From Bacteroidales bacterium (lineage in GTDB: Bacteria > Bacteroidota > Bacteroidia > Bacteroidales > Lentimicrobiaceae), in NCBI GenBank assembly GCA_024636955.1, contig JAGXGB010000005.1, forward strand, positions 1 to 45,270: DNA of 45,270 bases. The letters are read 5' to 3'. The notes under the pieces were generated by a model, which searched no databases, was not told the origin of the DNA, and saw only the letters and a program-made list of their open reading frames with translations. Positions 2,249 to 23,138 of the stretch are shown one piece after another (position 1 is the stretch's first letter; every line of letters starts with the position of its first letter). The translations under genes and the position numbers were made by a program.

Positions 2249-2938
2249 CTAACCAATTTTACTGATAGTCTCAAGCATTGGCACATTCAGCAAATGGATT
2301 TGGTTCCCATCAACAGTTATGATTCCCTCATCCTTAAAGGTTTTTAAAGCCCTAACAACACTTTCTTTAGTCATACCACACATATCAGCCATGTCCTGGC
2401 GTGAGAGACAAGAAGTAAAAGGATTCTTCTTATAAACTATCTGCGAAAGCCTCAGCAAGGTTTCAGCAACTCGTCCGGGTATTTGCTTTTGTGTTAAGTT
2501 GGTTAGTTGCCGGCATAGGTCAATGGTTTGATTACTTATTTTCGCGATAAACTCATTAGCGAATTCATGATTACTCCTGACTAATTCCTGGAAAACATCA
2601 GTTGCTACAAGGCAAACAGTAGTTTCCTCGCAGGCAATAGCAGTAAAATGGTGTCTTTTATCAATATATGCACCTGGTGCAAATATATACTCAACCGGGC
2701 GCACGAAGCCAATAATGATTTTTTTATCATCCTCTCCTTCAACAAAGCATTTCACCAAACCCGAAGTCACACAAACAAAGTCATGGCAGGGTGAACCTTG
2801 CTTAAAAATGATCTCCCCATGTGAGTAATGCATACCTACGCGGGCATCATTAACTTTGCTAAGTTCAGTATCATTTAAGCCGGAAAAGATGTCAGCTCTG
2901 TTTTTGCAACTAATACAGTGTGTGGATATTACCTTCAT
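2249..2938 (-). CDS. Crp/Fnr-family transcriptional regulator
   Basis: 229 residues: N-terminal cyclic-nucleotide-like beta-barrel (about 25-120), dimer helix, then a Crp-type winged helix with HTH at about 179-201. The recognition helix has Glu192 and Arg196 at the positions that read TGA in CRP/FNR sites. Cysteines include Cys8-x-x-Cys11 and Cys51, Cys56 and Cys103, so an oxygen- or redox-sensing cofactor is possible, but the exact FNR four-cysteine pattern is not present. It is divergent from the cytochrome locus, and a perfect TTGAT-N4-ATCAA palindrome lies 21 bp upstream of its start, suggesting autoregulation and control of the cytochromes (inference). Ligand unknown. Confidence 0.9.
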   Translation of the reverse strand: MKVISTHCISCKNRADIFSGLNDTELSKVNDARVGMHYSHGEIIFKQGSPCHDFVCVTSGLVKCFVEGEDDKKIIIGFVRPVEYIFAPGAYIDKRHHFTAIACEETTVCLVATDVFQELVRSNHEFANEFIAKISNQTIDLCRQLTNLTQKQIPGRVAETLLRLSQIVYKKNPFTSCLSRQDMADMCGMTKESVVRALKTFKDEGIITVDGNQIHLLNVPMLETISKIG

Positions 2939-2959: not shown

Positions 2960-2977
2960 CGTTGATATAAATCAACG
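2960..2977. promoter_or_regulatory. FNR/CRP-type operator in the divergent promoter
   Basis: CGTTGAT-ATAA-ATCAACG is a perfect 18-bp palindrome containing TTGAT-N4-ATCAA, the E. coli FNR consensus. It lies between the Crp/Fnr gene and the first cytochrome gene, 103 bp before the latter's start. No exact TAnnTTTG box was found on either side of it, so I cannot place a transcription start. Confidence 0.75.
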
Positions 2978-3079: not shown

Positions 3080-3472
3080 ATGATGAAACTATCTAATTGT
3101 AAAAAAGCAGCAAGAATGGCTTTCGCAGGAGTCATCCTAATGACCTTAGTATCAGCATGCGAATATGAATATGCTGAGTTCCCTGAACCAGTTCCCTCTG
3201 AAGTGGAAGTTAAATTTTCAACTGAAATTATTCCCATTTTCGTGAGCAGTTGCAATTCCAGCAGTTGTCATGGGACAGGTGCTGTTCCTCCAGACCTTAC
3301 ACCGGCAAATGCTTACAACAGTTTAATTGAATTGAGCCAGGTTGATACAGCAAATCCTGCCAATAGCATTCTTTATAAAAAGATGTCAACTGGTAGCATG
3401 GCACAATTTTCAACAGCTGCTCAGGCTCAGGCCGTTTTTGACTGGATCAGTCAGGGCGCAAAAAATAATTAA
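3080..3472 (+). CDS. Monoheme c-type lipoprotein with a CX4CH site
   Basis: 130 residues. A signal peptide ends in the lipobox LVSAC with Cys27 as the lipidated residue, so the protein should be membrane-anchored. A single candidate heme site, CNSSSCH (residues 58-64), has four rather than two residues between the cysteines. The surrounding pattern (IIPIFVSSC...CHG, then a short helical tail ending FDWISQGA) resembles the small cytochrome c-like domains common in Bacteroidota and Planctomycetes lipoproteins. Met102 or Met107 could be the distal ligand. A second ATG three bases downstream is an equally possible start. It is the first gene of the cytochrome locus, followed after 22 bp by the DUF5777 gene. 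Likely role: electron transfer near the outer membrane (inference). Confidence 0.8.
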   Translation: MMKLSNCKKAARMAFAGVILMTLVSACEYEYAEFPEPVPSEVEVKFSTEIIPIFVSSCNSSSCHGTGAVPPDLTPANAYNSLIELSQVDTANPANSILYKKMSTGSMAQFSTAAQAQAVFDWISQGAKNN

Positions 3473-3494
3473 TTTGTAAAAAAACACTGATACA

Positions 3495-4409
3495 ATGAAA
3501 AAAATATACAGGTTACAAGGCATAGTTGTCATATTATTGGCGTCTTTACTTATTACAAGCAATGCTTCAGCCCAAGAGAACGATTCAATTGCTGAAGCGC
3601 CACAGAAAGAACGTCCTGCACGTCCGGCATTTGAAAGTGGGTTGGTATTTGATAACGCAACTTCCACAATTCAACCATCTAATACCCTGGAGATGGTAAT
3701 TCAGCACAGATTTGGAACCATGGACAATGGAATATCTGATGTGTTTGGTATAATGGCTCCTTCTACTATTAGACTTGGTTTTAATTATAGTATACTTGAT
3801 AACCTGATGATTGGTATAGGCTCATCCAATAACCACAAAATGCAGGATATTCAACTCAAATGCAATATACTGCAGCAAACTCGCTCAAATTCTATTCCCC
3901 TTACTATATCATTATATGAAGTGATTGGTATTGATGCTATGGCTGAAACAAAATGGGGACCTGATTATAAGTTCGCTAACAGGCTGTCTTATTTCAGTCA
4001 GGTAATATTTGCAAGGAGATTTAATGACAATTTCTCATTCCAGGTTGCTCCTTCATTCGCTCATTATAATGCGCACATAGTTGACACTCTTGATCATGAT
4101 AGAATTGCTATTTCATTTGCAGGTAGGTATAAATTCTCTCCACAGAGCTCTATAATTATAGGAGGTGATTTCCCTTTGAAGATACAATCTATTTCTGAAC
4201 AGAACGAGGCTGTAAATGAAGGAATCGAAAATATTAAACCTAATATTTCAATAGGATTGGAAGTATCAACAAGTACACATGCTTTCCATATATACCTCGG
4301 CTCTTCAAGGTTAATACAGCCACAGGAAAACATTATGTTTAATGAGAATGATTTCTTTGATGGAACAATATTCCTGGGCATGAATATTACACGTTTGTGG
4401 GGTTTCTAA
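3495..4409 (+). CDS. DUF5777-family outer-membrane beta-barrel protein
   Basis: 304 residues with a signal peptide (cleavage after ASAQ, about residue 26). The segment STIQPSNTLEMVIQHRFGT, followed by alternating amphipathic strands and an aromatic C-terminus ending in Trp-Gly-Phe, matches the DUF5777 barrel family of Bacteroidota, which often sits beside c-type cytochromes. A terminal phenylalanine is typical of proteins inserted by the BAM machinery. Lying between a cytochrome lipoprotein and a heptaheme cytochrome, it could be the barrel of a porin-cytochrome conduit or a pore for a substrate (inference). The family has no established biochemical role. Confidence 0.8.
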   Translation: MKKIYRLQGIVVILLASLLITSNASAQENDSIAEAPQKERPARPAFESGLVFDNATSTIQPSNTLEMVIQHRFGTMDNGISDVFGIMAPSTIRLGFNYSILDNLMIGIGSSNNHKMQDIQLKCNILQQTRSNSIPLTISLYEVIGIDAMAETKWGPDYKFANRLSYFSQVIFARRFNDNFSFQVAPSFAHYNAHIVDTLDHDRIAISFAGRYKFSPQSSIIIGGDFPLKIQSISEQNEAVNEGIENIKPNISIGLEVSTSTHAFHIYLGSSRLIQPQENIMFNENDFFDGTIFLGMNITRLWGF

Positions 4410-4475
4410 TAATTAAGGAGAGCTAATTCAAAAACTTTCCTTAATTTAACTAATAATTTTTTAAGTTTACTGATA

Positions 4476-5459
4476 ATGATTAAAAGATTCAAAAACGGAA
4501 AGCAGTATATAGTATCAGCCATTACCATAGTTCTACTAGGGTTTGGTTTGATATCTTCAGCTTTTTCTGATGAAACTACAATACCGCTCTCTGATGAAAC
4601 TCAAAAGTGTTTAAGTTGTCATGGTGGTGCTCACTATACGTTGAGTGACACAACATCAGGTGACGAGGCAAGACTCACTATGTACAGGGAATTACGTGTA
4701 GATGCAGCGTCTTTCGCTGATGGAACTCACGGGAAGTTTAAATGTACTGATTGTCACTCATCAGATTATGAGATTACTCCTCATCCGATAAGCGTTAAGT
4801 TTGAAAGCAATTACGCCTGTATGGACTGCCATGGTGGTGATGAAGCTTATGCTAGTTTCAATTTTGAGACAATCGAAGAAGAGTACAATGAAAGCGTGCA
4901 TGCGAAGGTGTTAGGTGCAGAATTCACTTGTTGGAGCTGCCACAATCCTCATTATTATAAGCTTTCAAGAAATATCTCCGTTGTTGAGAGAGTGGCTACT
5001 GATAATGAAATGTGTTTGCAGTGTCATGGAAATGAAATTAAATTCAGTGACCTAAGTGAAGATGAATTGCCTAACCTTATTAGTAAACACGACTGGTTAC
5101 CAAATCAGGCTCTACATTTCAATAAAGTAAGATGCATTGACTGCCATGCTAAACAGAATGATAGTATTATGGTAGCGCATCTTATTCAAGGTGGCGATAA
5201 AGCAGTTAAGAATTGTGTTGAGTGCCATTCTACTAACTCAATTTTGATGGCTTCATTATACAAACATGAAGTGTCGCAACAAAGGGATGAAAGAGGCTTC
5301 TACAATAGTATTATAATGAATGAGGCATACCTTATTAGCGCAAACCGCAATTATTATCTTAATATTGCAAGTATAGTACTATTCGGTTTAACACTATTTG
5401 CAATAGCTATACATGCCTATTATAGAACTCGTAAAAATCATGCAGATGTCAGAGAATAA
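4476..5459 (+). CDS. Membrane-anchored heptaheme cytochrome c
   Basis: 327 residues. An uncleaved or signal helix lies at about 11-30 and a C-terminal transmembrane helix at about 293-315, followed by a basic tail. Seven canonical CxxCH sites begin at residues 45, 90, 115, 152, 180, 220 and 247, with extra histidines for bis-His ligation. The heme domain should be periplasmic, anchored to the inner membrane. The gene overlaps the downstream cytochrome b gene, a strong sign of a two-subunit complex. By analogy with Cbc-type and other quinol dehydrogenases, the b subunit would oxidise menaquinol and this subunit would receive the electrons. A direct donor, such as a sulfur or nitrogen compound, is an alternative. 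Confidence 0.9.
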   Translation: MIKRFKNGKQYIVSAITIVLLGFGLISSAFSDETTIPLSDETQKCLSCHGGAHYTLSDTTSGDEARLTMYRELRVDAASFADGTHGKFKCTDCHSSDYEITPHPISVKFESNYACMDCHGGDEAYASFNFETIEEEYNESVHAKVLGAEFTCWSCHNPHYYKLSRNISVVERVATDNEMCLQCHGNEIKFSDLSEDELPNLISKHDWLPNQALHFNKVRCIDCHAKQNDSIMVAHLIQGGDKAVKNCVECHSTNSILMASLYKHEVSQQRDERGFYNSIIMNEAYLISANRNYYLNIASIVLFGLTLFAIAIHAYYRTRKNHADVRE

Positions 5460-6069
5460 AGTATATTTATATCCGGTTTGGGTTAGATTTTGGCATGCTT
5501 CAAATGCTATACTATGCCTTCTATTAATATTTACAGGTGTTAGTATGCAATATGCCAGCCTTGAATCACCTTTGATGTCTTTTGCTTTGGCAGTTTCCAT
5601 GCATAACATAAGTGGAATTCTATTAACAATATTCTACCTTGTTTTTATTATTGGAAATTTAACAACGTGGAATGGGAAATATTATAGACAAAGGATTGCG
5701 GGTTTTGGAAAAGAGGTCATAAAACAAATGAGATATTATTCTTACGGAATGTTTGTTGGAGAGCCTGCTCCTTTCAAGATTAATAAAACCCGCAAGTTTA
5801 ACCCAATACAAAAGATGACCTATATAGCAGTGATGTACGTGCTCATGCCTTTTATTTTCATAACCGGTTGGGCATTGTTATTCCCTGAGATTATTGTAAC
5901 AAGGTTGTTTCACTTTGGCGGAATTACTTTAACAAGCCTTTTCCATGCAGTGTTAGGCTTTTTCGTATCGCTTTTTTTAATAATACACATATATTTTTGC
6001 ACTGTTGGTCATACTCCAACTTCTAATTTCAAGAGTATGGTTGACGGGTATCACGAAACACACAACTAA
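5446..6069 (+). CDS. Cytochrome b561-type membrane subunit
   Basis: About 208 residues with four hydrophobic helices. The start VYLYPVWVRFWHASNAILC is typical of the di-heme cytochrome b/b561 family (thiosulfate reductase, hydrogenase and formate dehydrogenase b subunits). Candidate heme b ligands are the His of RFWH, the His of SMHNISG and those of the last helix (SLFHAVLG, LIIHIYF). In-frame ATGs lie at 5413, 5440 and 5446; 5446 is preferred because it starts just before the conserved motif and limits the overlap with the upstream stop to 14 bp. Translation is probably coupled to the heptaheme gene. Likely quinone-interacting anchor of that complex. Confidence 0.85.
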   Translation: MSENKVYLYPVWVRFWHASNAILCLLLIFTGVSMQYASLESPLMSFALAVSMHNISGILLTIFYLVFIIGNLTTWNGKYYRQRIAGFGKEVIKQMRYYSYGMFVGEPAPFKINKTRKFNPIQKMTYIAVMYVLMPFIFITGWALLFPEIIVTRLFHFGGITLTSLFHAVLGFFVSLFLIIHIYFCTVGHTPTSNFKSMVDGYHETHN

Positions 6070-6099
6070 TCAATTACACACACTAAACAAAAATTACTT

Positions 6100-7428
6100 A
6101 TGAAAAGAAAAAGTTTTTTATTAATCTTAGCAGCAGGATTCATGATGGCGGGAAGTCTCATGTCAGGTTGTACTAAAGAAGGACCAGCAGGTAAAGATGG
6201 AGTAAATGGAACAAATGGAGCAGATGGAACAGCCGGTCTTGATGGAACAGCTACCTGTATTGAGTGCCACAGTCCTGAAGGCATCGAAAAAGCTGCTGTT
6301 GAATATCAGATGTCAAAGCACAGCTATGGCGGTGCAGCTTTTGAAGAAGCTGGAAGAGCAGGTTGCGATCCTTGTCACGTATCATTAGGATTCCTTGATG
6401 TTGTTGAAAATAATACACCAGCAACTTTTACACTTAATGAAGCAACCGGTAAGTATGTAAACAATTATGAAGCTGCTCCGCACGCTTTATTTGGTGCAAT
6501 TGACTGCAGAACTTGCCACAACGAAATACACGCAACATACACTGCAGGTGATTTATCACTTACAACAGTAGCTCCAGTAGATCTTACTATGTGGGGTGGT
6601 TTGAAAACTGCTGATGTAGCTGCCGATGGTGGAATGGGTAACCTTTGTATCAAATGTCATCAACCACGTCCTGTTACTAGCTTCACTACAAGTAATGCAA
6701 TTGATTACGCAGCACTTGCTTCTAATCCTACAGGAATGGCCTATGATCCAACCCCTGGTGCTACTAATTTAGTTAGACCTAGTTACAGAACAGGCGTTCA
6801 CTATGCAACTCAGGCTGTTACTTATACTGGTGTAGGCGGTGTTGAATTCCCAGGAACTGCATACAATAATTCTATCCACTCTTCAATTGCTTCTTGTCAG
6901 GATTGCCATATGGCTCCAATGCAAGGAACATCAGGTGGACATAGTTTCTTCGCAAAGGGTAATTTCAACGGTTGTAATGCTGAAGGTTGTCACAATGGTG
7001 TTGACGCTTCATCAGCAAGCTTCTGGACTGGCCCACGTAGTGATATTAAAGCTAAACTTGATGCACTTGCAGCTGCCCTCAATATTGATGGGGTTGAATT
7101 CATGAGCAGGAATCCTGATGCAGAGCATAATTTATGGGCAGCTAGCACAACCAACATGTATGATGGTTATTTAAACCTTTACGATCCGATCACCAATCCT
7201 GAGGGAATGGCTAATAATCCAAATGGTATTTTCCGTAACCCAGCTCCTTCAAATTCATGGAGTGCTGATCAGAAAGCTATAAACGCTGCTTTACCAGCTC
7301 TCTCTATGACAAATGCACAATTAGGTGCAATTATTAACTTCCAGTTAGTACTTAGAGACTATAGCCTAGGAATTCATAACTACAAGTATACTAAAGCTTT
7401 ATTAGAGAACTCAATTGCTGCTCTCTAA
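6100..7428 (+). CDS. Multiheme c-type lipoprotein with collagen-like stalk
   Basis: 442 residues. The signal peptide ends in lipobox LMSGC (Cys24). Directly after it, glycines at 28, 31, 34, 37, 40, 43, 46 and 49 form eight Gly-X-Y triplets, a short collagen-like segment. Heme sites: CIECH 53-57, CDPCH 89-93, CRTCH 136-140, CIKCH 183-187, CQDCH 266-270 and a non-canonical CNAEGCH (CX4CH) at 292-298, six in total. The last 140 residues have no cysteine pairs and may be a separate domain. The anchor plus stalk suggests a protein held away from a membrane, perhaps at the cell surface. Gly-X-Y may trimerise it. A terminator follows. Likely terminal or near-terminal electron carrier of the locus (inference). 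Confidence 0.85.
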   Translation: MKRKSFLLILAAGFMMAGSLMSGCTKEGPAGKDGVNGTNGADGTAGLDGTATCIECHSPEGIEKAAVEYQMSKHSYGGAAFEEAGRAGCDPCHVSLGFLDVVENNTPATFTLNEATGKYVNNYEAAPHALFGAIDCRTCHNEIHATYTAGDLSLTTVAPVDLTMWGGLKTADVAADGGMGNLCIKCHQPRPVTSFTTSNAIDYAALASNPTGMAYDPTPGATNLVRPSYRTGVHYATQAVTYTGVGGVEFPGTAYNNSIHSSIASCQDCHMAPMQGTSGGHSFFAKGNFNGCNAEGCHNGVDASSASFWTGPRSDIKAKLDALAAALNIDGVEFMSRNPDAEHNLWAASTTNMYDGYLNLYDPITNPEGMANNPNGIFRNPAPSNSWSADQKAINAALPALSMTNAQLGAIINFQLVLRDYSLGIHNYKYTKALLENSIAAL

Positions 7429-7452
7429 TATTTGACGTAATACATAAGATCG

Positions 7453-7487
7453 AAAGCCGTTGCAATTATGCAGCGGCTTTTGTTTTT
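7453..7487 (+). terminator. Rho-independent terminator after the stalked cytochrome
   Basis: An 11-bp stem (7453-7463 with 7470-7480, one G-T pair) and a 6-nt loop are followed by TGTTTTT. It lies 25 bp past the stop codon and closes the 3080-7428 transcription unit. Confidence 0.8.
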
Positions 7488-7621
7488 ATTAGAAATCATT
7501 GAATCATGATTGTTGGATTAACATCAGTATGGCAGCAAAACCATCACAAGACTAATACATAGACGTTGCAATATATATGTGTATTCTGAAGTTATTGTGG
7601 AAATTCGTTTAACAACTTTTG

Positions 7622-7629
7622 TACTTTTG
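7622..7629 (+). promoter_or_regulatory. Sigma-ABfr -7 box (TACTTTTG)
   Basis: Exact match to the Bacteroidota -7 consensus TAnnTTTG, 17 bp before the ATG at 7647. The preceding terminator supports an independent promoter. The 7488-7621 stretch is otherwise featureless AT-rich spacer. Confidence 0.6.
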
Positions 7630-7646
7630 CGGTAAAATATCTTCAC

Positions 7647-8342
7647 ATGAAACTTACCCTATCTATTATTTTTCTATTATTAAACTCTTTGCTCTCACAA
7701 TCGCAGCCTATTATTTACCACCTTGGCCTTCAAGGGGGTGCTAGTATACCAATATTAGACTTTTCATCTTCCGATCTGCAGAAAGGAAGTTTTGCCCTCA
7801 CAGGCTTCACTACATCAGCAGATGCTAAGGTTATTTTTAATAATACTCTGGGTGGTTTTATTCAGGCTGGTATTCAGTTGTTACCTGTTGATGTAGGGCC
7901 TTTGGGGTATGAAAAGGTGAAAGCAGATCCTTTTCTTCAGGATCTTTACATACGCAGCGATCCTTTTAAAATAATTCATTTACTTGCTGGCCCTGTTTAC
8001 CAGATTCCACTATGGAAATCATTTATTTTTGAAGGACAGGTTGGTGCTGGGGTCTTTTTGAGCAGCACACCTTATCAATTATATAAGCCGAGTTTTTTCT
8101 TCATGGGACCTCCCTATTATGAGATCACACCATCACAGGATGTTAGTTTTGCATACAGTGCTTCTATTAAAGCAATTTACGACCTTACACCATGCTATCA
8201 GATAGCCCTTTCAAGTCAGATCATGAATTCAAAGGCATCATTTGATTTTGAAAGCTCTACAAGGGTAAGAACTGATATCAGAAACATAAGCTTATTGAAT
8301 ATTTCTTTATCACTAATTCTTAAATTACCGACTGGTAAATGA
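7647..8342 (+). CDS. Putative outer-membrane beta-barrel protein, unknown function
   Basis: 231 residues with a signal peptide (about 1-20, ending LLSQSQ). The mature part alternates hydrophobic and polar residues in short strands (HLGLQGGASIPIL, IIHLLAGPVYQIPL, FIFEGQVGAGVFL), as in small 8-10-strand outer-membrane barrels, and the last strand (LLNISLSLILKL) is amphipathic. There is no heme motif. It has its own promoter and sits between two cytochrome units, so a role in the same pathway is possible but unsupported. I do not recognise a specific family. Confidence 0.6.
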   Translation: MKLTLSIIFLLLNSLLSQSQPIIYHLGLQGGASIPILDFSSSDLQKGSFALTGFTTSADAKVIFNNTLGGFIQAGIQLLPVDVGPLGYEKVKADPFLQDLYIRSDPFKIIHLLAGPVYQIPLWKSFIFEGQVGAGVFLSSTPYQLYKPSFFFMGPPYYEITPSQDVSFAYSASIKAIYDLTPCYQIALSSQIMNSKASFDFESSTRVRTDIRNISLLNISLSLILKLPTGK

Positions 8343-8384
8343 CAGTTTTATGCAGTATAAATAGCTACTGCTTTTCAGGAGCAT

Positions 8385-8398
8385 ATGATTTATATCAA
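8385..8398. promoter_or_regulatory. FNR-like site upstream of the soluble cytochrome c
   Basis: ATGAT-TTAT-ATCAA matches TTGAT-N4-ATCAA at nine of ten positions. It lies 66 bp upstream of a -7 box and 130 bp upstream of the cytochrome c gene. Together with the perfect site at 2960 it suggests that one Crp/Fnr protein controls both units. Confidence 0.45.
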
Positions 8399-8463
8399 TT
8401 GAAGTAATCAAATAAAACAATTGTTGTCTTGAAATTCAGCGTATTAATGATTGGATATAATGC

Positions 8464-8471
8464 TATCTTTG
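8464..8471 (+). promoter_or_regulatory. Sigma-ABfr -7 box (TATCTTTG)
   Basis: Exact TAnnTTTG match, 57 bp before the cytochrome c start, giving a leader of roughly 50 nt. I see no convincing -33 TTTG at the usual distance, which would fit a promoter that needs an activator such as the nearby FNR-like site. Confidence 0.55.
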
Positions 8472-8527
8472 TGATTGACAATAGTAAATTATAAATCAAA
8501 TCTAAAATTGCTTTAAATTTAAACAAC

Positions 8528-8941
8528 ATGAGAAAATCAGTAAAACTTATTACTATTCTTTCAATAGCCATGATTTTTAGTGCAGCCAACATGGCTTTTG
8601 CTCAGAAAGAAGCTGGACCTTGGACAATCCCCGCGAAATACAAAACAATGAAAAGTACTGTTAAGGTAACTGATCCTACAGTAACTTCAGTTGGTAAGGA
8701 TATGTATAATAAGCATTGCAAATCATGCCATGGTACAAAAGGCCTTGGTGATGGTCCAAAAGCTGCCATGATGAAAACCCAATTGCCATCTTTTGCAAGT
8801 AAAGCATTCCAAGCTCAAACAGAAGGTGAAATCTACTACCAGTCAATTATAGGTCGTGATGAAATGCCAAACTTTGAAAAGAAAATTGCAGATGAAGAAG
8901 ACAGGTGGGCTGTTGTACAATATGTTCGTACACTAAAATAG
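8528..8941 (+). CDS. Small soluble cytochrome c (class I, monoheme)
   Basis: 137 residues with a signal peptide cleaved near AFAQ (about residue 26), leaving a periplasmic protein of about 110 residues. One CKSCH heme site at 64-68 is followed by the GTKGLGDGP loop usual in class I cytochromes; Met113 in DEMPNFEKK is the likely distal ligand, and the C-terminal helix DEEDRWAVVQYVRTL is also characteristic. It probably shuttles electrons between the inner-membrane multiheme proteins and the lipoprotein cytochromes. It is a single-gene unit with its own promoter, an FNR-like site and a strong terminator. Confidence 0.92.
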   Translation: MRKSVKLITILSIAMIFSAANMAFAQKEAGPWTIPAKYKTMKSTVKVTDPTVTSVGKDMYNKHCKSCHGTKGLGDGPKAAMMKTQLPSFASKAFQAQTEGEIYYQSIIGRDEMPNFEKKIADEEDRWAVVQYVRTLK

Positions 8942-8959
8942 TTAATAACAGAATAAAAA

Positions 8960-8993
8960 GGGTGCCTGATTTAGACCAGGCGCCTTTTTTTTT
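8960..8993 (+). terminator. Rho-independent terminator after cytochrome c
   Basis: The stem GGTGCCTG/CAGGCGCC (one T-G pair) with loop ATTTAGAC is followed by nine T residues. It lies 18 bp after the stop codon. Confidence 0.88.
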
Positions 8994-9012
8994 AACATAC
9001 AATTCGAGTCCG

Positions 9013-9078
9013 TTTCCCACACAGTTCGATTTTATTTCACACACAGTTCAATTTTATTTTACACACACTTCAAAAAAT
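9013..9078 (+). repeat. 22-bp tandem repeat upstream of the NapC-like gene
   Basis: Two units (9013-9034 and 9035-9056), both of form TTTCnCACACAGTTCnATTTTA, differ at two positions. A third, degraded unit (TTTTACACACACTTCAAAA...) runs into the ATG at 9077. The leader of the NapC-like mRNA would contain these units. No TAnnTTTG box is visible here. Confidence 0.7.
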
Positions 9079-10576
9079 GAAACTGCCAAAATCAATTTAC
9101 AATTGGATAAGTATTACCGGCTTTATTCTTGCAATTAACAGTCTGATAATTATCCTGGTTTTATTCCTTTTTTCATTGTTTTCAGAAGAAAGCAATGCCT
9201 ATTTGGGATTATTTATTTACATTATTGTGCCCGGGGTAATGGTTTTGGGTCTTTTGTTGATTCCTATTGGTATGTTAATACAGAGGAGAAAGAAAGATCC
9301 TGCACCTGAAACTGCCGGTAAATGGCCGGTATTGGATCTAAATCAGAAGTTCCAGAGAAGTGCACTTATCAGGGTTTCTGTCATTACAGTAATATTACTT
9401 ATTATCTCTTCAGTTGGTAGTTATCAGGCATTCCATTATAGTGAATCAGTAGAATTTTGTGGTACATTGTGCCATGAAGTAATGGAGCCTGAATATGTAA
9501 CATATCAGCACTCAGCTCATGCAAAAGTGAAATGTGTTGACTGCCATGTTGGTGAAGGAGCTGGTTGGTATGTTAAATCAAAATTATCAGGATTGTACCA
9601 GGTATATTCAGTAACTTTCAATAAATACGCCAGGCCTATAGAAACTCCACTACATAATTTGCGTCCGGCAAGTGAAACATGCGAAAAATGCCATTGGCCT
9701 GAAAAATTCTATTCTCGGAAACTTAGAACCCAGCGCTCTTACCTTGCTGATTCAAGTAACACAGAATGGGATATATCATTACTTATGAAAATAGGGCCGG
9801 AACATAGCGCTCATGGTTTGGCTGAAGGTATACACTGGCATATCAACAAGGACTATAAAATTGAATATGTTGCAAGCACAAATGACAGGGAATCTATTCC
9901 ATGGGTTAAACTAACCAATGTCAAAACTGGTGAAGTTAAAATATATATGGATGAAGAAAACCCAATTGACGATGCTGCAATCGATACACTTGAAAGAAGA
10001 TCAATGGATTGCATGGATTGTCACAACCGACCATCACATATATACAAATCAGCTCCTGATTTTATTGATCATGCGCTAACATCAGGGAATATACCATCAG
10101 ATATTCCATACATCAAATTTGCTGCAATGGAAGCCTTGAAAGTACCATATGAAACAAAGGCAAACGCTCATAAAGAAATATATACTACCATTGTTGGTTT
10201 TTACAAGGATGAACACCCTGATATCTATTTAAAGGAGTTTACTAAAATACAGAAAGCTATCAAGACTATCCAGGGCGAATATGACAAAAACGTATTTCCT
10301 TACATGAAAGCTGATGCCAGCAGATATCTTAATCACATTGGACATCTCGAATCACAGGGATGCTTCAGGTGTCACTCTGACAGGCACAAAACAGAAACAG
10401 GAGAAGTAATTTCAAAAACTTGCGAAAACTGTCATAGTATCCTGGCCCAAGGGTTTGCAAACGAAACCGCTAAAGTGCCATTAACTAATACTATGGAATT
10501 CGTTCACCCTGTTGATATAAGGGATACATGGAAGACTGCTATGTGTTCAGACTGCCATAAGACTTTATACGAATAG
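9077..10576 (+). CDS. NapC/NirT-like membrane heptaheme cytochrome c
   Basis: 499 residues. Three hydrophobic helices (about 11-33, 42-68, 97-118) precede a large periplasmic heme domain. Heme sites: CGTLCH 128-133 (three residues between cysteines), CVDCH 153, CEKCH 202, CMDCH 312, CFRCH 429, CENCH 449 and CSDCH 490. FCGTLCHEVMEPEY resembles heme 1 of the NapC/NrfH family, where a nearby Met can ligate the iron and quinol is oxidised; this longer variant recalls NapC-like proteins of Geobacter-type metal reducers. Likely a menaquinol dehydrogenase passing electrons to periplasmic carriers. No nrfA or napA is beside it, so the acceptor is not a classic nitrite or nitrate reductase encoded here. 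Confidence 0.88.
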   Translation: MKLPKSIYNWISITGFILAINSLIIILVLFLFSLFSEESNAYLGLFIYIIVPGVMVLGLLLIPIGMLIQRRKKDPAPETAGKWPVLDLNQKFQRSALIRVSVITVILLIISSVGSYQAFHYSESVEFCGTLCHEVMEPEYVTYQHSAHAKVKCVDCHVGEGAGWYVKSKLSGLYQVYSVTFNKYARPIETPLHNLRPASETCEKCHWPEKFYSRKLRTQRSYLADSSNTEWDISLLMKIGPEHSAHGLAEGIHWHINKDYKIEYVASTNDRESIPWVKLTNVKTGEVKIYMDEENPIDDAAIDTLERRSMDCMDCHNRPSHIYKSAPDFIDHALTSGNIPSDIPYIKFAAMEALKVPYETKANAHKEIYTTIVGFYKDEHPDIYLKEFTKIQKAIKTIQGEYDKNVFPYMKADASRYLNHIGHLESQGCFRCHSDRHKTETGEVISKTCENCHSILAQGFANETAKVPLTNTMEFVHPVDIRDTWKTAMCSDCHKTLYE

Positions 10577-20405: not shown

Positions 20406-21458
20406 CTAAGCAGGTACAAGAAACCACTTTCGCTTGAAATAAAAAGCAACATTAACCAGTGCAATCATTACAGGCACCTCAACCAACGGGCCTATTACAG
20501 CAGCAAAAGCTTCACCCGAGTTTATTCCAAAGATTGCAATTGCCACTGCAATGGCAAGTTCAAAGTTATTGCTCGCGGCAGTGAATGACAGTGTTGTCGA
20601 TTGTTCATAATTTGCACCTGCCATTTTGCTCATGAAGAATGATGCCACAAACATTACCACAAAATAAATTCCCAGAGGTATCGCTATTCTTACAACATCA
20701 AAAGGAATACGCACAATAAGATCACCTTTTAGCGAGAACATCACAAAGATTGTAAACAACAAGGCAATTAAGGTAAGAGGACTTATTTTTGGAATGAACT
20801 TCCGATGGTACCAATCTTTGTCTTTTACTCTGATCAGTATAAACCTTGTAAGGAAACCGGCAGCAAAAGGAATCCCCAGATATATCATCACACTTTCGGC
20901 TATCTGACCAATTGTTATCTGTGCAACCTTGTCATTAACAGGAAGCCCAAACCACCCAGGCAAAACTGCTATAAAGAAATAGGCATAAACAGAAAAGAAC
21001 AGCACCTGGAAAATTGAATTGAATGCAACCAATCCTGCTGCGTATTGTGTATCACCTTTAGCCAGATCATTCCACACAATTACCATTGCAATGCAACGTG
21101 CCAAACCAATCAGTATGAGCCCATACATATAGTCTACGTTAAACTGCAAGAAGATTACTGCAAGAATAAACATAAGCACAGGTCCAATCACCCAGTTCTG
21201 GATCAATGACAAACCCAAAATCTTTGTGTTTCTGAACACATCCCCCAGCTCTTCATATTTCACCTTTGCAAGAGGCGGGTACATCATAACTATGAGTCCT
21301 ATTGCAATAGGAATGTTTGTGGTTCCGGATGAGAGGCTGTTCCAAAATCCCGAGACATCAGGACTTAAATAACCAATCAGGATTCCTGCGAACATTGCGA
21401 GGAAAATCCACAAGGTCAAATACCTGTCTAAAAATTTCAACCGCGGTTTTGATGGCAT
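20406..21458 (-). CDS. acr3: Arsenite efflux permease, ACR3 family
   Basis: 350 residues with about ten hydrophobic helices. The segment [19 protein letters not shown] holds the conserved helix-4 cysteine required for As(III) transport in ACR3 proteins, and [15 protein letters not shown] is the second family signature. It extrudes arsenite using the proton motive force. It is the last gene of arsR-arsC-arsM-acr3, 55 bp after arsM. It belongs to ACR3 (BASS superfamily) rather than the unrelated ArsB family. Confidence 0.95.
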
Positions 21459-21513
21459 ATATCAGAAATGTTTATTGATTACTGAATAATGTTATCTAAT
21501 TCATGAAATAAGG

Positions 21514-22332
21514 TTATGGCTTGTATGCTGTAACTGTAATACTAAATAACCCAGCACCATTGGTTTTATATTCTTCAGTTTCCTTTTCATCCAGATAATT
21601 TGCCAAAATTTCGTCAGGAATTCTTATCTGTTTTGATTTACGGATGGTTATCCCTGTAAAACTGAGCTCTTCAATTATATTGATATACTCATTCCATTCA
21701 ACAGCACCTGATACACATCCTGCGTACATTTCAGCATCTCGCAGTATAGTCTCGGGCAAATTACCATTAACCACTACATCTGATACACTGAAATGACCTC
21801 CCGGCTTCAATACACGCAGTATTTCAGAAAAGGCTTTGCGCTTGTCGGGCACCAGGTTTAAAACACAATTGGACACAACAACGTCAATAACATCATTATC
21901 AATAGGCATTTCTTCAATGTCACCCTTTACAAACTCAACATTGGTATAACCAAGCTTTGTTGCATTTGCAACTGCTTTAGATAACATCTCTTCCGTAAAA
22001 TCTATGCCGGTTACTTTACCGGTTTCTCCAACAATAGCCCTGGCAACAAAACAATCATTACCAGCTCCACTGCCAAGATCGAGAACATGTTGTCCTATTT
22101 TTATATCAGCATAATCAGTCGGAATTCCACATCCTAAGCCCAGATCAGCATCTGCATTGTACCCTTCAACTTGTTCGTAGCTATCACTAAAAACAGTGTA
22201 GTCTTCAGTGGAGCAGCACCCCCCTGACCCGCAGCAGGATGATTCATTTCTACCTTTATCTTGTTTGGCAATCTGACCGTATTTTGATCTTACAATTTCT
22301 TTGAGCTCTTCAGCCTTTATATTCTCTTTCAT
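21514..22332 (-). CDS. arsM: Arsenite S-adenosylmethionine methyltransferase
   Basis: 272 residues. A Rossmann methyltransferase core with the SAM motif VLDLGSGAGNDC (83-94). Three cysteines at 68 (GLGCGIP), 156 (VSNCVLNL) and 206 (YAGCVSG) match the conserved As(III)-binding set of ArsM. An extra Cys cluster CCGSGGCC at 33-40 lies in the N-terminal extension. It methylates arsenite to volatile or less retained forms. It lies between arsC and acr3, so As(III) formed by ArsC can be either methylated or exported. Confidence 0.95.
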   Translation of the reverse strand: MKENIKAEELKEIVRSKYGQIAKQDKGRNESSCCGSGGCCSTEDYTVFSDSYEQVEGYNADADLGLGCGIPTDYADIKIGQHVLDLGSGAGNDCFVARAIVGETGKVTGIDFTEEMLSKAVANATKLGYTNVEFVKGDIEEMPIDNDVIDVVVSNCVLNLVPDKRKAFSEILRVLKPGGHFSVSDVVVNGNLPETILRDAEMYAGCVSGAVEWNEYINIIEELSFTGITIRKSKQIRIPDEILANYLDEKETEEYKTNGAGLFSITVTAYKP

Positions 22333-22372
22333 AATTGTGCATTTAATGTGTTGTTGTGAAGTTATATGAACT

Positions 22373-22798
22373 TCATAATTCTGCTTTTAATGTGTTGTTG
22401 TATAGCTTTAAGAATGATTGTTTAATTTCATCCCGCACCCTGATATATTCGCTGTCAATAAATTCTGTGGAACCGGTAGCTTTTGAAGGATCATCAAATC
22501 CCACATGCAATCTGGTTTTGACTTTGCCAGGGAAGAATGGGCAAGCTTCATTAGCCTGATCACAAACAGTAATTACATAATCCCAGTCGGTTCCAAGGCA
22601 TTGATCAACCTGGTCGGAAGTGTGACCGCTAATATCTACGCCTATTTGCTGCATTACTTCCACTGCTTTTCTGTTCAATTCGCCTGATGCTTCTGTACCG
22701 GCAGAATAAACTTCCAGTCGGTTGTCAAATGATTGAAGAAAGCCATGAGCCATCTGGCTCCTACAGCTATTGCCTGTACAAAGAATGAGTATTTTCAT
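22373..22798 (-). CDS. arsC: Arsenate reductase, thioredoxin-coupled LMW-phosphatase type
   Basis: 141 residues from the ATG at 22798; a longer frame begins at 22861 but would overlap arsR and add 21 non-conserved residues. The CX5R catalytic loop is CTGNSCR (7-13), and the resolving cysteines are Cys79 and Cys86 in CDQANEACP, the arrangement of Staphylococcus aureus ArsC. It reduces arsenate to arsenite with electrons from thioredoxin. The start follows the arsR stop after 1 bp, so translation is probably coupled. Confidence 0.95.
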   Translation of the reverse strand: MKILILCTGNSCRSQMAHGFLQSFDNRLEVYSAGTEASGELNRKAVEVMQQIGVDISGHTSDQVDQCLGTDWDYVITVCDQANEACPFFPGKVKTRLHVGFDDPSKATGSTEFIDSEYIRVRDEIKQSFLKLYNNTLKAEL

Positions 22799-22799
22799 G

Positions 22800-23138
22800 T
22801 TATTGATGATTTGTGTTACAGTTAATTTCTGATGACCTAACCGGTTCAAAAAAAGTCTCAAAAGTTTCCAGGTACTTTTGAATAGAGGATGTGCATAGGC
22901 AGTAATTGATCTTTAACCCGTCAATCTCACCATGTATCAAGCCCACATCGCGCAATGCCTTTAAATGTTGGGAGACAGTAGTGCGGCTAAGAGGAAGATA
23001 ATCAGAGATGTCACCTGAAATACATCCTGGTGTTTTTGATAGATATTCAAGTATTGCAAGCCGTGCAGGATGTGAAATTGCCTTAGCAAATACCGACAAC
23101 TCCTGCAGGTTATTATCAAATTTCTGTGATTTATTCAT
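22800..23138 (-). CDS. arsR: ArsR-family repressor
   Basis: 112 residues. The winged helix includes ISDYLPLSRTTVSQHLKALRDVGLI. The classic helix-5 ELCVCDL arsenic motif of E. coli ArsR is absent (here YLPLS). Cys39, Cys80, Cys82 and Cys107 remain as candidate As(III) ligands, so sensing probably uses a different triad. It should bind the inverted repeat just upstream and repress arsRCM-acr3 until arsenite binds. First gene of the operon. Confidence 0.92.
   Translation of the reverse strand: MNKSQKFDNNLQELSVFAKAISHPARLAILEYLSKTPGCISGDISDYLPLSRTTVSQHLKALRDVGLIHGEIDGLKINYCLCTSSIQKYLETFETFFEPVRSSEINCNTNHQ

Follow-up and report, generated by a model that had tools for sequence, protein, structure and literature searches.

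A co-conserved cytochrome and DUF5777 gene cluster of Bacteroidales as a candidate module for outward electron transfer

The window analyzed here, a 45,270-nt stretch of DNA from a Bacteroidales bacterium of the Lentimicrobiaceae (GCA_024636955.1, contig JAGXGB010000005.1), carries between positions 3080 and 10576 a set of cytochrome genes for which outward electron transfer is the best reading and, in our view, a fairly probable one. Comparison across the order supports a co-conserved electron-transfer module made of quinol dehydrogenases, a periplasmic cytochrome, lipoprotein cytochromes and an outer-membrane barrel. The gene set is more than a chance association because dozens of the order's genomes contain it.

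Gene content and recurrence across the order

The features of the cluster and its flanking promoter region are as follows.

2249..2938, minus strand: Crp/Fnr regulator, divergent (Pfam HTH_Crp_2 and cNMP_binding)
2962..2975, no strand assigned: perfect FNR-type box TTGATATAAATCAA in the divergent promoter region
3080..3472, plus strand: LIC, monoheme c-type cytochrome lipoprotein, LIC11213-like (CX4CH; lipobox LVSAC found by eye)
3495..4409, plus strand: DUF5777 outer-membrane beta-barrel (PF19089, 3.9e-71)
4476..5459, plus strand: HEPTA, heptaheme c-type cytochrome with an N-terminal signal and a C-terminal membrane helix (seven CX2CH)
5413..6069, plus strand: b561-type membrane subunit (PF01292, 4e-25); the ORF overlaps HEPTA and its start is possibly at 5431 or later
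6100..7428, plus strand: HEXA, hexaheme lipoprotein with a collagen-like Gly-X-Y start (six motifs; OcwA/OmhA/NrfA-like profile)
7647..8342, plus strand: ORF, the putative second barrel of the earlier note, lineage-specific and without a Pfam or NCBIfam match
8385..8398, no strand assigned: FNR-like box with one mismatch, upstream of c1
8528..8941, plus strand: c1, periplasmic monoheme class-I cytochrome c (PF00034, 1.5e-11)
9077..10576, plus strand: ImcH-type quinol dehydrogenase (N-terminal part with three helices; one CX3CH and six CX2CH motifs; PF03264, 3e-12)

All cluster genes are intact open reading frames, and the five cytochromes together contain 22 CXnCH motifs (1+7+6+1+7), in agreement with the roughly 22 hemes in five cytochrome genes claimed in the earlier note. 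Pfam and NCBIfam matches back four of the five cytochromes as well as the b561 subunit, the DUF5777 protein and the adjoining Crp/Fnr regulator, so these assignments from the same note also stand.

A HEPTA gene was found in 65 of the 295 genomes of the order Bacteroidales. DUF5777 co-occurs with it in 64 of these 65 genomes and HEXA in 55, and within 9 kb of HEPTA the 65 loci hold genes for b561 (61), DUF5777 (58), LIC (57), Crp/Fnr (47), HEXA (46), c1 (46, sometimes in two copies) and the ImcH-type protein (19). The co-conservation anticipated for DUF5777 with the b561/heptaheme pair, and for the Gly-X-Y cytochrome, was thus observed. HEXA is absent from 10 of the HEPTA genomes, and 17 genomes carry HEXA without HEPTA; among the 13 of these 17 that were fetched, DUF5777 lies in the HEXA locus in seven. 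L075 and L081-L088 were left out of the order counts; L003 and L004, judged by length to be the same contigs as L015 and L016, were not counted either. The Fisher tests applied to co-occurrence ignore relatedness among the genomes.

The quinol module around the outer core was surveyed in 66 loci, two of them from a single genome (G407) and excluding L079, where the heptaheme gene is broken. It includes NrfD-type genes in 15 loci, ImcH-type genes in 19 and both in four, while 36 have neither, some because contigs end. HEPTA-like proteins with 19 and 26 hemes adjoin HEXA and DUF5777 in two loci (L143 and L146), and in another family of the phylum HEXA is accompanied by a longer form of HEPTA and by either ImcH-type or b561 partners, DUF5777 not adjoining. 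Genes for ResB/CcsA cytochrome maturation are present in 17 of the 66 loci. A 485-aa neighbor family shared by L008-L010 is an alpha-L-fucosidase. A soluble terminal reductase or oxidase was found neither among the 20 recurring neighbor families analyzed with Pfam nor among the other named recurring families.

The earlier note had placed two barrels in one system. This holds for DUF5777, which accompanies HEPTA in nearly every genome, and fails for the second putative barrel: the ORF at 7647..8342 has a homologue in one other species, is present in two of 65 loci counting the window, and matches nothing in Pfam or NCBIfam at an E-value of 1. The two-barrel idea was rejected, and this ORF is probably not a core part of the system.

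Quinol dehydrogenases and the hexaheme lipoprotein

Judged by its layout, the HEPTA/b561 pair appears to be a split CbcL-like quinol dehydrogenase. HEPTA has hydrophobic segments at residues 12-30 and 294-312, and the b561 subunit has four hydrophobic segments and matches PRK15006 with 188 bits, below the cut-off of 204. Both the pair and CbcL combine c-type hemes with a b-type membrane domain, and HEPTA and b561 are joined on one chain in three relatives (L060, L068 and L075). CbcL, MtrH and MtoC, compared here by description, are single polypeptides in which a multiheme domain is attached to the b-type membrane domain, whereas the window encodes two proteins in two genes, and CbcL has nine hemes against the seven of HEPTA.

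The protein encoded at 9077..10576, described earlier as NapC-like, has the anatomy of ImcH. It is 499 aa long with hydrophobic segments at 16-34, 44-62 and 96-114; its first heme motif is a CX3CH (CGTLCH) followed by six CX2CH, and its NapC/NirT domain (PF03264) spans residues 95-206. In the published description (PMC6295460), the Geobacter ImcH group is characterized by a length of 495-519 aa, three N-terminal membrane helices, and a CX3CH by the helices in addition to six CX2CH motifs. ImcH is also similar to NapC/NirT in the region of its third helix and first hemes, as is the window protein. ImcH-type genes occur in 43 of the 65 HEPTA genomes and in none of 15 HEPTA-negative genomes.

HEXA is a candidate terminal cytochrome of the OcwA/OmhA type. 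A lipobox is present, and the protein may be exposed on the cell surface. A profile built from 50 selected homologues matched OcwA (6i5b, 1.1e-16) and OmhA (6qvm, 2.1e-14; PDB entries named in PMC12203936), the surface metal reductases of the Gram-positive Thermincola and Carboxydothermus, which are the closest solved structures by profile. The relationship covers the C-terminal NrfA-like heme core and helices. OcwA has nine hemes and OmhA 11, compared with six in HEXA, which belongs to a Gram-negative host and is a lipoprotein that starts with a collagen-like stretch. Cys24, the six CXnCH motifs (five CX2CH and one CX4CH) and H234 are found in all 50 homologues, and residue 235 is His in 27 and Tyr in 23 of them; positions 234/235 align with a His-His pair of OmhA, a motif that in OcwA/OmhA-like cytochromes sits over a heme with open coordination, while the OcwA alignment starts just past the pair. 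This alignment consists of the window protein and 49 of 64 listed homologues, the omitted sequences being eight 4-heme proteins, L075 (8 hemes), L030 (5 hemes), the partial L010, L037, the second L043 copy, and L005 and L011, which are close to L006. Because the AlphaFold2 model of HEXA (pLDDT 37) is too poor for a fold search, its family assignment rests on profiles. The description of the cluster as resembling metal reducers in logic and not in sequence must be corrected for three of its parts, namely the protein with ImcH anatomy, the CbcL-like pair with its natural fusions, and the OcwA/OmhA-like hexaheme protein.

The HEXA profiles also match octaheme nitrite reductase and NrfA. The earlier statement that the cluster has no terminal reductase is therefore only partly right, since HEXA is distantly related both to OcwA/OmhA and to the NrfA/octaheme reductases. 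A soluble HEXA substrate is possible because the protein has only six hemes and because OcwA reduces nitrite slowly and also reacts with and reduces hydroxylamine (PMC6703420). The cluster might then be a periplasmic or surface reductase system in which HEXA, fed by the ImcH-type protein and HEPTA/b561, reduces nitrite, hydroxylamine or some other compound in the manner of NrfA and the octaheme enzymes, with the barrel admitting the substrate; the resemblance of the DUF5777 model to the small channels KdgM, NanC and Tsx would suit such a role. We nevertheless consider this unlikely. A strong NrfA-family match lies elsewhere in the genome (C76, 1.7e-173), likely to be an NrfHA because this 492-aa frame adjoins a 211-aa four-heme frame; all six HEXA motifs end in CH, the NrfA-type CXXCK being absent from them; and several quinol modules together with a lipoprotein stalk would be unusual for an enzyme of this kind.

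LIC and DUF5777 at the outer membrane

LIC has a single heme motif and matches the NCBIfam family LIC11213_lipo (3.9e-13) and Cytochrome_CBB3 (0.065), both below cut-off. For DUF5777, an AlphaFold2 model of medium confidence (pLDDT 62, pTM 0.63) predicts a narrow barrel of 12 strands, and KdgM, OmpG, NanC, FapF and Tsx are among its first 50 Foldseek matches. In its logic the cluster is the same as MtrCAB and other porin-cytochrome complexes, with a quinol dehydrogenase, a periplasmic carrier, an outer-membrane barrel and a lipoprotein cytochrome. However, an MtrA-type decaheme protein is absent from the window cluster, and an MtrAB-type role for DUF5777 as an MtrB-like sheath is unlikely because it models with only 12 strands. 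A search for MtrB-type porins gave a single match to MtrB_PioB (PF11854) over cut-off, in one of the 65 genomes.

In a phylogenetic tree, 62 of 63 cluster-type DUF5777 proteins form their own clade with support of 1.0. One other sequence falls inside it (L130), and this one adjoins an NrfD-type module. In other lineages, the partner of DUF5777 is either a small cytochrome or a Rieske protein. Four loci from another family of the phylum (f34) have, between HEXA and a 13-heme HEPTA, a fused one-heme/putative-barrel protein that occupies the place of LIC and DUF5777. All four fused proteins have an N-terminal heme motif in the context RP-x-YSILQ-x-x-GTKCxxCH, and their size and aromatic C-terminus suggest that they are barrels. 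By profile comparison they do not resemble DUF5777 (hhalign probability 6); none of the four rose above noise in NCBIfam, and the two tried in Pfam gave no match. One heme combined with a barrel at the outer membrane is also the layout of Cyc2. Cyc2 differs in being one chain, as are the four f34 relatives, where the window has two genes, in having 16 strands against the 12 predicted for DUF5777, and in oxidizing iron; its motif AXPXFAR[Q/K][T/Y] preceding the heme site (PMC8406198) is absent from LIC and from the four f34 proteins.

A possible, still tentative, interpretation is that LIC and DUF5777 together make up a split cytochrome-porin, a new outer-membrane device widespread in Bacteroidota in which a narrow barrel would work with a lipoprotein cytochrome c (elsewhere a Rieske protein) in place of a wide porin around a multiheme wire. 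The present cluster would be this device adapted to the anaerobic respiration of extracellular acceptors, with an OcwA-like cytochrome at the surface.

Regulation, direction of electron flow and significance

In FNR-type regulators a 4Fe-4S cluster is bound by four conserved cysteines, and the FNR consensus is TTGAT-N4-ATCAA. In the 50 cluster-adjacent regulators, window included, Cys8, Cys11 and Cys109 are invariant and a further Cys is found at position 56 in 33; the three invariant residues are candidate oxygen-sensing Fe-S ligands. The box at 2962..2975 is the sole perfect FNR match in the window. The second box, at 8385..8398, is weak evidence because chance alone would give the window about five sites if one mismatch is allowed. 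Of 60 loci, the window among them, 34 have a box matching nine or ten of ten bases upstream of the leading gene of the cluster, versus 11 of 308 control genes; this count omits L012, L013, L075, L081-L088, loci with DUF5777 opposite HEPTA and those with less than 250 bases upstream. Without L005, L006, L008, L009 and L011, which have no identifier from the order set, it is 29 of 55, 16 of them perfect. When box patterns were compared, the FNR form was observed at 34 of 64 loci versus 2.35 expected and TTGTGA-N6-TCACAA at two of 64 versus 0.05 expected, with two further patterns near expectation at these loci. The cluster thus appears to be anaerobically induced.

In the scheme that best fits the gene content, co-conservation, family relationships and FNR box, the cluster would be a respiratory module induced under anaerobic conditions. 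At the inner membrane, quinol would be oxidized by two dehydrogenases, the ImcH-type protein and HEPTA/b561, which would hand the electrons to the small periplasmic cytochrome c1. From c1 they would reach an outer-membrane station where LIC, in contact with DUF5777, may act as a split counterpart of a fused cytochrome-porin, and also HEXA, which would reduce an extracellular acceptor such as Fe(III) or Mn(IV) oxides, electrodes, humics or a redox partner. The direction of flow, the exposure of HEXA at the surface, the contact between LIC and DUF5777 and the nature of the acceptor and the quinone are inferred.

The same chain could be imagined to run inward or in both directions, taking electrons from dissolved Fe(II), reduced minerals, Fe(0) or partner cells to the quinone pool. 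CbcL/MtrH/MtoC-type proteins occur in Fe(II) oxidizers as well as Fe(III) reducers (PMC6295460), and iron oxidation is the function of Cyc2 (PMC8406198), the fused cytochrome-porin whose layout resembles that of the f34 proteins. On the other hand, PMC6295460 places ImcH homologues only in Fe(III) reducers, ImcH-type genes are common in HEPTA genomes, and FNR-type control fits anaerobic respiration, making inward flow improbable. Least probable is an aerobic or microaerobic branch in which c1, a class-I cytochrome, and LIC supply cytochrome c oxidase with electrons: other contigs of the genome carry a COX1 gene and two more genes of the COX1 family, but an oxidase is absent from the recurring neighbor families tested, and both the FNR box and the membrane-bound multiheme proteins suggest anaerobiosis.

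The literature searched, which covered few subscription papers, yielded no account of this set of genes; within the same coverage, text searches returned no paper on DUF5777, and none for Bacteroidetes with YceI, cytochrome c, outer membrane and beta-barrel. An anode-enriched Bacteroidetes MAG has an uncharacterized seven-gene cluster of cytochromes and one barrel that was proposed to function in extracellular electron transfer (PMC8258643); it has six multiheme genes compared with three here. Metal-reducing Bacteroidota (Labilibaculum) have been isolated, and the authors state that the responsible genes need study (PMC5760507). The cluster provides a concrete, widely conserved candidate with named parts for such activity and may help explain metal reduction by some Bacteroidota. 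Because it links inner-membrane enzymes resembling ImcH and CbcL with an OcwA-like lipoprotein by way of a non-MtrAB outer-membrane part, it makes the crossing of electrons through the Bacteroidota outer membrane directly testable, with a small barrel and a one-electron protein as a testable new route.

Composition and conservation of the cluster

An earlier note described this locus as a putative new electron-transfer chain with a DUF5777 barrel, a second putative barrel, no terminal reductase and about 22 c-type hemes. All the genes it listed were found, and 22 CXnCH motifs were counted in five c-type cytochromes carrying 1, 7, 6, 1 and 7 hemes. The other members are a DUF5777 barrel, a b561-type subunit, ORF 7647–8342, which has no family match in Pfam or NCBIfam, and a divergent Crp/Fnr gene. 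From the ORF coordinates, 22 bases separate LIC from DUF5777, 66 separate DUF5777 from HEPTA and 30 separate b561 from HEXA; the b561 ORF overlaps HEPTA, and the last three genes (ORF 7647–8342, c1 and the ImcH-type gene) are set apart by gaps of 218, 185 and 135 bases. Conservation was scored within 9 kb of HEPTA in 66 fetched Bacteroidales loci, 65 of which have the standard heptaheme gene, and in a subset of 41 with enough flank.

Cluster genes and their occurrence near HEPTA (heptaheme cytochrome, 4476–5459): all loci; loci with enough flank
b561, b-type subunit, 5413–6069: 61/65; 39/41
DUF5777, outer-membrane barrel, 3495–4409: 58/65; 38/41
LIC, monoheme lipoprotein cytochrome, 3080–3472: 57/65; 38/41
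Crp/Fnr regulator, 2249–2938, minus strand: 47/65; 32/41
HEXA, hexaheme lipoprotein, 6100–7428: 46/65; 33/41
c1, class-I cytochrome c, 8528–8941: 46/65; 28/41
ImcH-type heptaheme protein, 9077–10576: 19/65; 14/41
Putative barrel 2, ORF 7647–8342: 2/65; 1/41

The proposed co-conservation of DUF5777 with the b561/HEPTA pair and the Gly-X-Y cytochrome (HEXA) is thus borne out (58, 61 and 46 of 65 HEPTA loci), and the putative second barrel drops out of the system as a local addition because of its near absence from these loci. Profile searches detected HEPTA in 65/295 genomes of the order, own genome counted (threshold E 1e-20), and DUF5777 and HEXA in 116 and 72 of the same genomes. HEPTA genomes contain DUF5777 in 64/65 cases (Fisher ∼3e-31) and HEXA in 55/65 (Fisher ∼5e-34), both values being uncorrected for relatedness. 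Across the phylum 48/395 genomes match HEPTA at E 0.001; the strong matches, own genome aside, are G066 and another family, f34, with a 13-heme homologue in each of eight fetched f34 loci.

Variable quinol-side modules

The ImcH-type protein (499 aa) has three N-terminal hydrophobic segments, an adjoining CX3CH and then six CX2CH, matching the anatomy described for ImcH (PMC6295460). It was found in 43/65 HEPTA genomes and 0/15 HEPTA-negative ones, and is therefore often encoded elsewhere in the genome when not adjoining HEPTA. HEPTA ends in a C-terminal helix with b561 next, and the two form a single protein in three loci (L060, L068, L075); the pair has the plan of CbcL split in two, with seven c-hemes in HEPTA versus nine in CbcL. 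DsrO-like iron-sulfur protein and NrfD genes occur in 15/66 loci, and in L143 and L146 HEPTA-like proteins with 19 to 26 hemes adjoin HEXA and DUF5777. Large HEPTA-similar proteins (583–1968 aa, 12–26 heme motifs) were also seen at L009 12275–15076, L083 5891–8698, L053 3796–6558 and in L146, the L009 protein (933 aa) having a b-type membrane domain at its C-terminal end. The inner-membrane modules thus vary around a constant trio of LIC, DUF5777 and HEXA, as would be expected if these three formed the outer-membrane station.

The DUF5777 barrel and its counterparts

The DUF5777 structure was predicted with medium confidence (AF2, pLDDT 62) to have 12 strands, and its nearest structures include, among the Foldseek matches listed, KdgM, OmpG, NanC, FapF and Tsx. 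The Mtr barrel is described as having 26 strands (PMC8406198), and a barrel as modeled here could not sheathe a multiheme wire in that way. MtrB_PioB scored above its cut-off in 1/65 genomes. DUF5777 itself occurs in 115/296 genomes of the phylum, and no paper was found under that name. A LIC-type cytochrome adjoins it on the same strand in 16 of 20 longer loci hand-picked among these 115 genomes (one, L130, also has an NrfD-type module), and on either strand in 24/30 short loci, partly the same places. In the remaining four longer loci (L121, L122, L131 and L134) a Rieske 2Fe-2S protein stands beside DUF5777 in place of the small cytochrome. Neighbors of ∼190 aa were YceI in 6/6 tested, and YceI was present in both Rieske-type loci tested (L121, L134). 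In the tree, 62/63 DUF5777 proteins from this cluster group in one clade (support 1.0), which leaves out L073 and takes in L130. Contig C81 of the own genome (L089 1–1977, minus strand) carries a second LIC-LIC-DUF5777 set outside this clade, with two-heme and one-heme cytochromes and no heptaheme partner on the stretch up to the contig edge that ends it.

In four f34 loci the gene order is HEXA, a 394–431-aa protein, a Rieske-type protein (tested for L082; the others share its sequence cluster), a small one-heme protein, 13-heme HEPTA, and either b561 or an ImcH-type protein as partner.

Fused one-heme/putative-barrel proteins of f34, between HEXA and the Rieske-type protein
L082 12065–13360
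L084 6537–7736
L085 6528–7712
L087 6278–7546

Each has a single CXXCH directly past the signal, in the context RP-x-YSILQ-x-x-GTKCxxCHV, and an aromatic final residue. The layout, with its putative barrel, is that of Cyc2, in which an outer-membrane barrel is described as carrying a one-heme domain on the same chain (PMC8406198), but the Cyc2 motif is absent. The f34 protein occupies the place of LIC and DUF5777, and hhalign detected no similarity between it and DUF5777. Most simply, LIC and DUF5777 would be a two-protein equivalent of this single chain.

Regulation and the proposed role of HEXA

The divergent promoter region contains TTGATATAAATCAA (2962–2975), the window's only perfect TTGAT-N4-ATCAA. 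In the 300 bases preceding the first cluster gene, an FNR-type box with 9 or 10 of 10 bases was found in 34/60 loci, window counted (20 perfect), or 29/55 for order loci only (16 perfect), compared with 11/308 other genes of the same loci (0 perfect). The regulator's Cys8, Cys11 and Cys109 are kept in 50/50 cluster-adjacent regulators, window counted, and Cys56 in 33/50. Together, the boxes and cysteines argue for anaerobic induction of the cluster, and we infer that the adjoining Crp/Fnr product itself binds the box.

In 50 selected HEXA homologues the lipobox Cys24 and the six heme sites are all kept, as are Gly28, Gly43 and Gly46 in the collagen-like start. A profile built from these 50 matched OcwA (6i5b, 1.1e-16) and OmhA (6qvm, 2.1e-14; both entries named in PMC12203936), then octaheme nitrite reductase and NrfA. 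OcwA is described as having open heme sites beneath His-His motifs (PMC6703420). His234 is present in 50/50 homologues, and the next residue is His in 27 and Tyr in 23; the OmhA His-His aligns with this pair, and the OcwA alignment begins just past it. H74, H144, H281 and H426 do not vary, and 49/50 homologues have His at position 260; judged from the alignment, a distal His could therefore be available to each of the five remaining hemes.

The main rival reading is that HEXA reduces a soluble compound. To check for a known reductase or oxidase accompanying the cluster, one member from each of 20 recurring neighbor families was searched in Pfam. The families comprised a sensor kinase, a redoxin, hydrolases, TonB receptors, an integrase, and proteins of metabolism and housekeeping; two gave no match. 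No soluble terminal reductase or oxidase appeared among these or the ResB/CcsA, DsrO and NrfD families. A strong NrfA-family match lies on a different contig of the own genome, which also has one COX1 oxidase gene and two further COX1-family genes; the latter (C52:11972–13306 and C72:6189–7493, reading frames 772 and 743 aa long) may encode nitric oxide reductases of the quinol type. At 20406–22861 of the window, genes resembling an arsenite exporter, an arsenite methyltransferase and an arsenate reductase were seen in tandem by eye in ORF translations.

Cultured Labilibaculum reduces Fe(III), and one strain Mn(IV) too; according to its authors, the underlying genes have yet to be studied (PMC5760507). 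In an anode-enriched Bacteroidetes genome the same role was proposed for six multiheme genes clustered with one barrel gene (PMC8258643), compared here by description only. The best reading of the present cluster is outward anaerobic respiration, with HEXA as the candidate terminal cytochrome.
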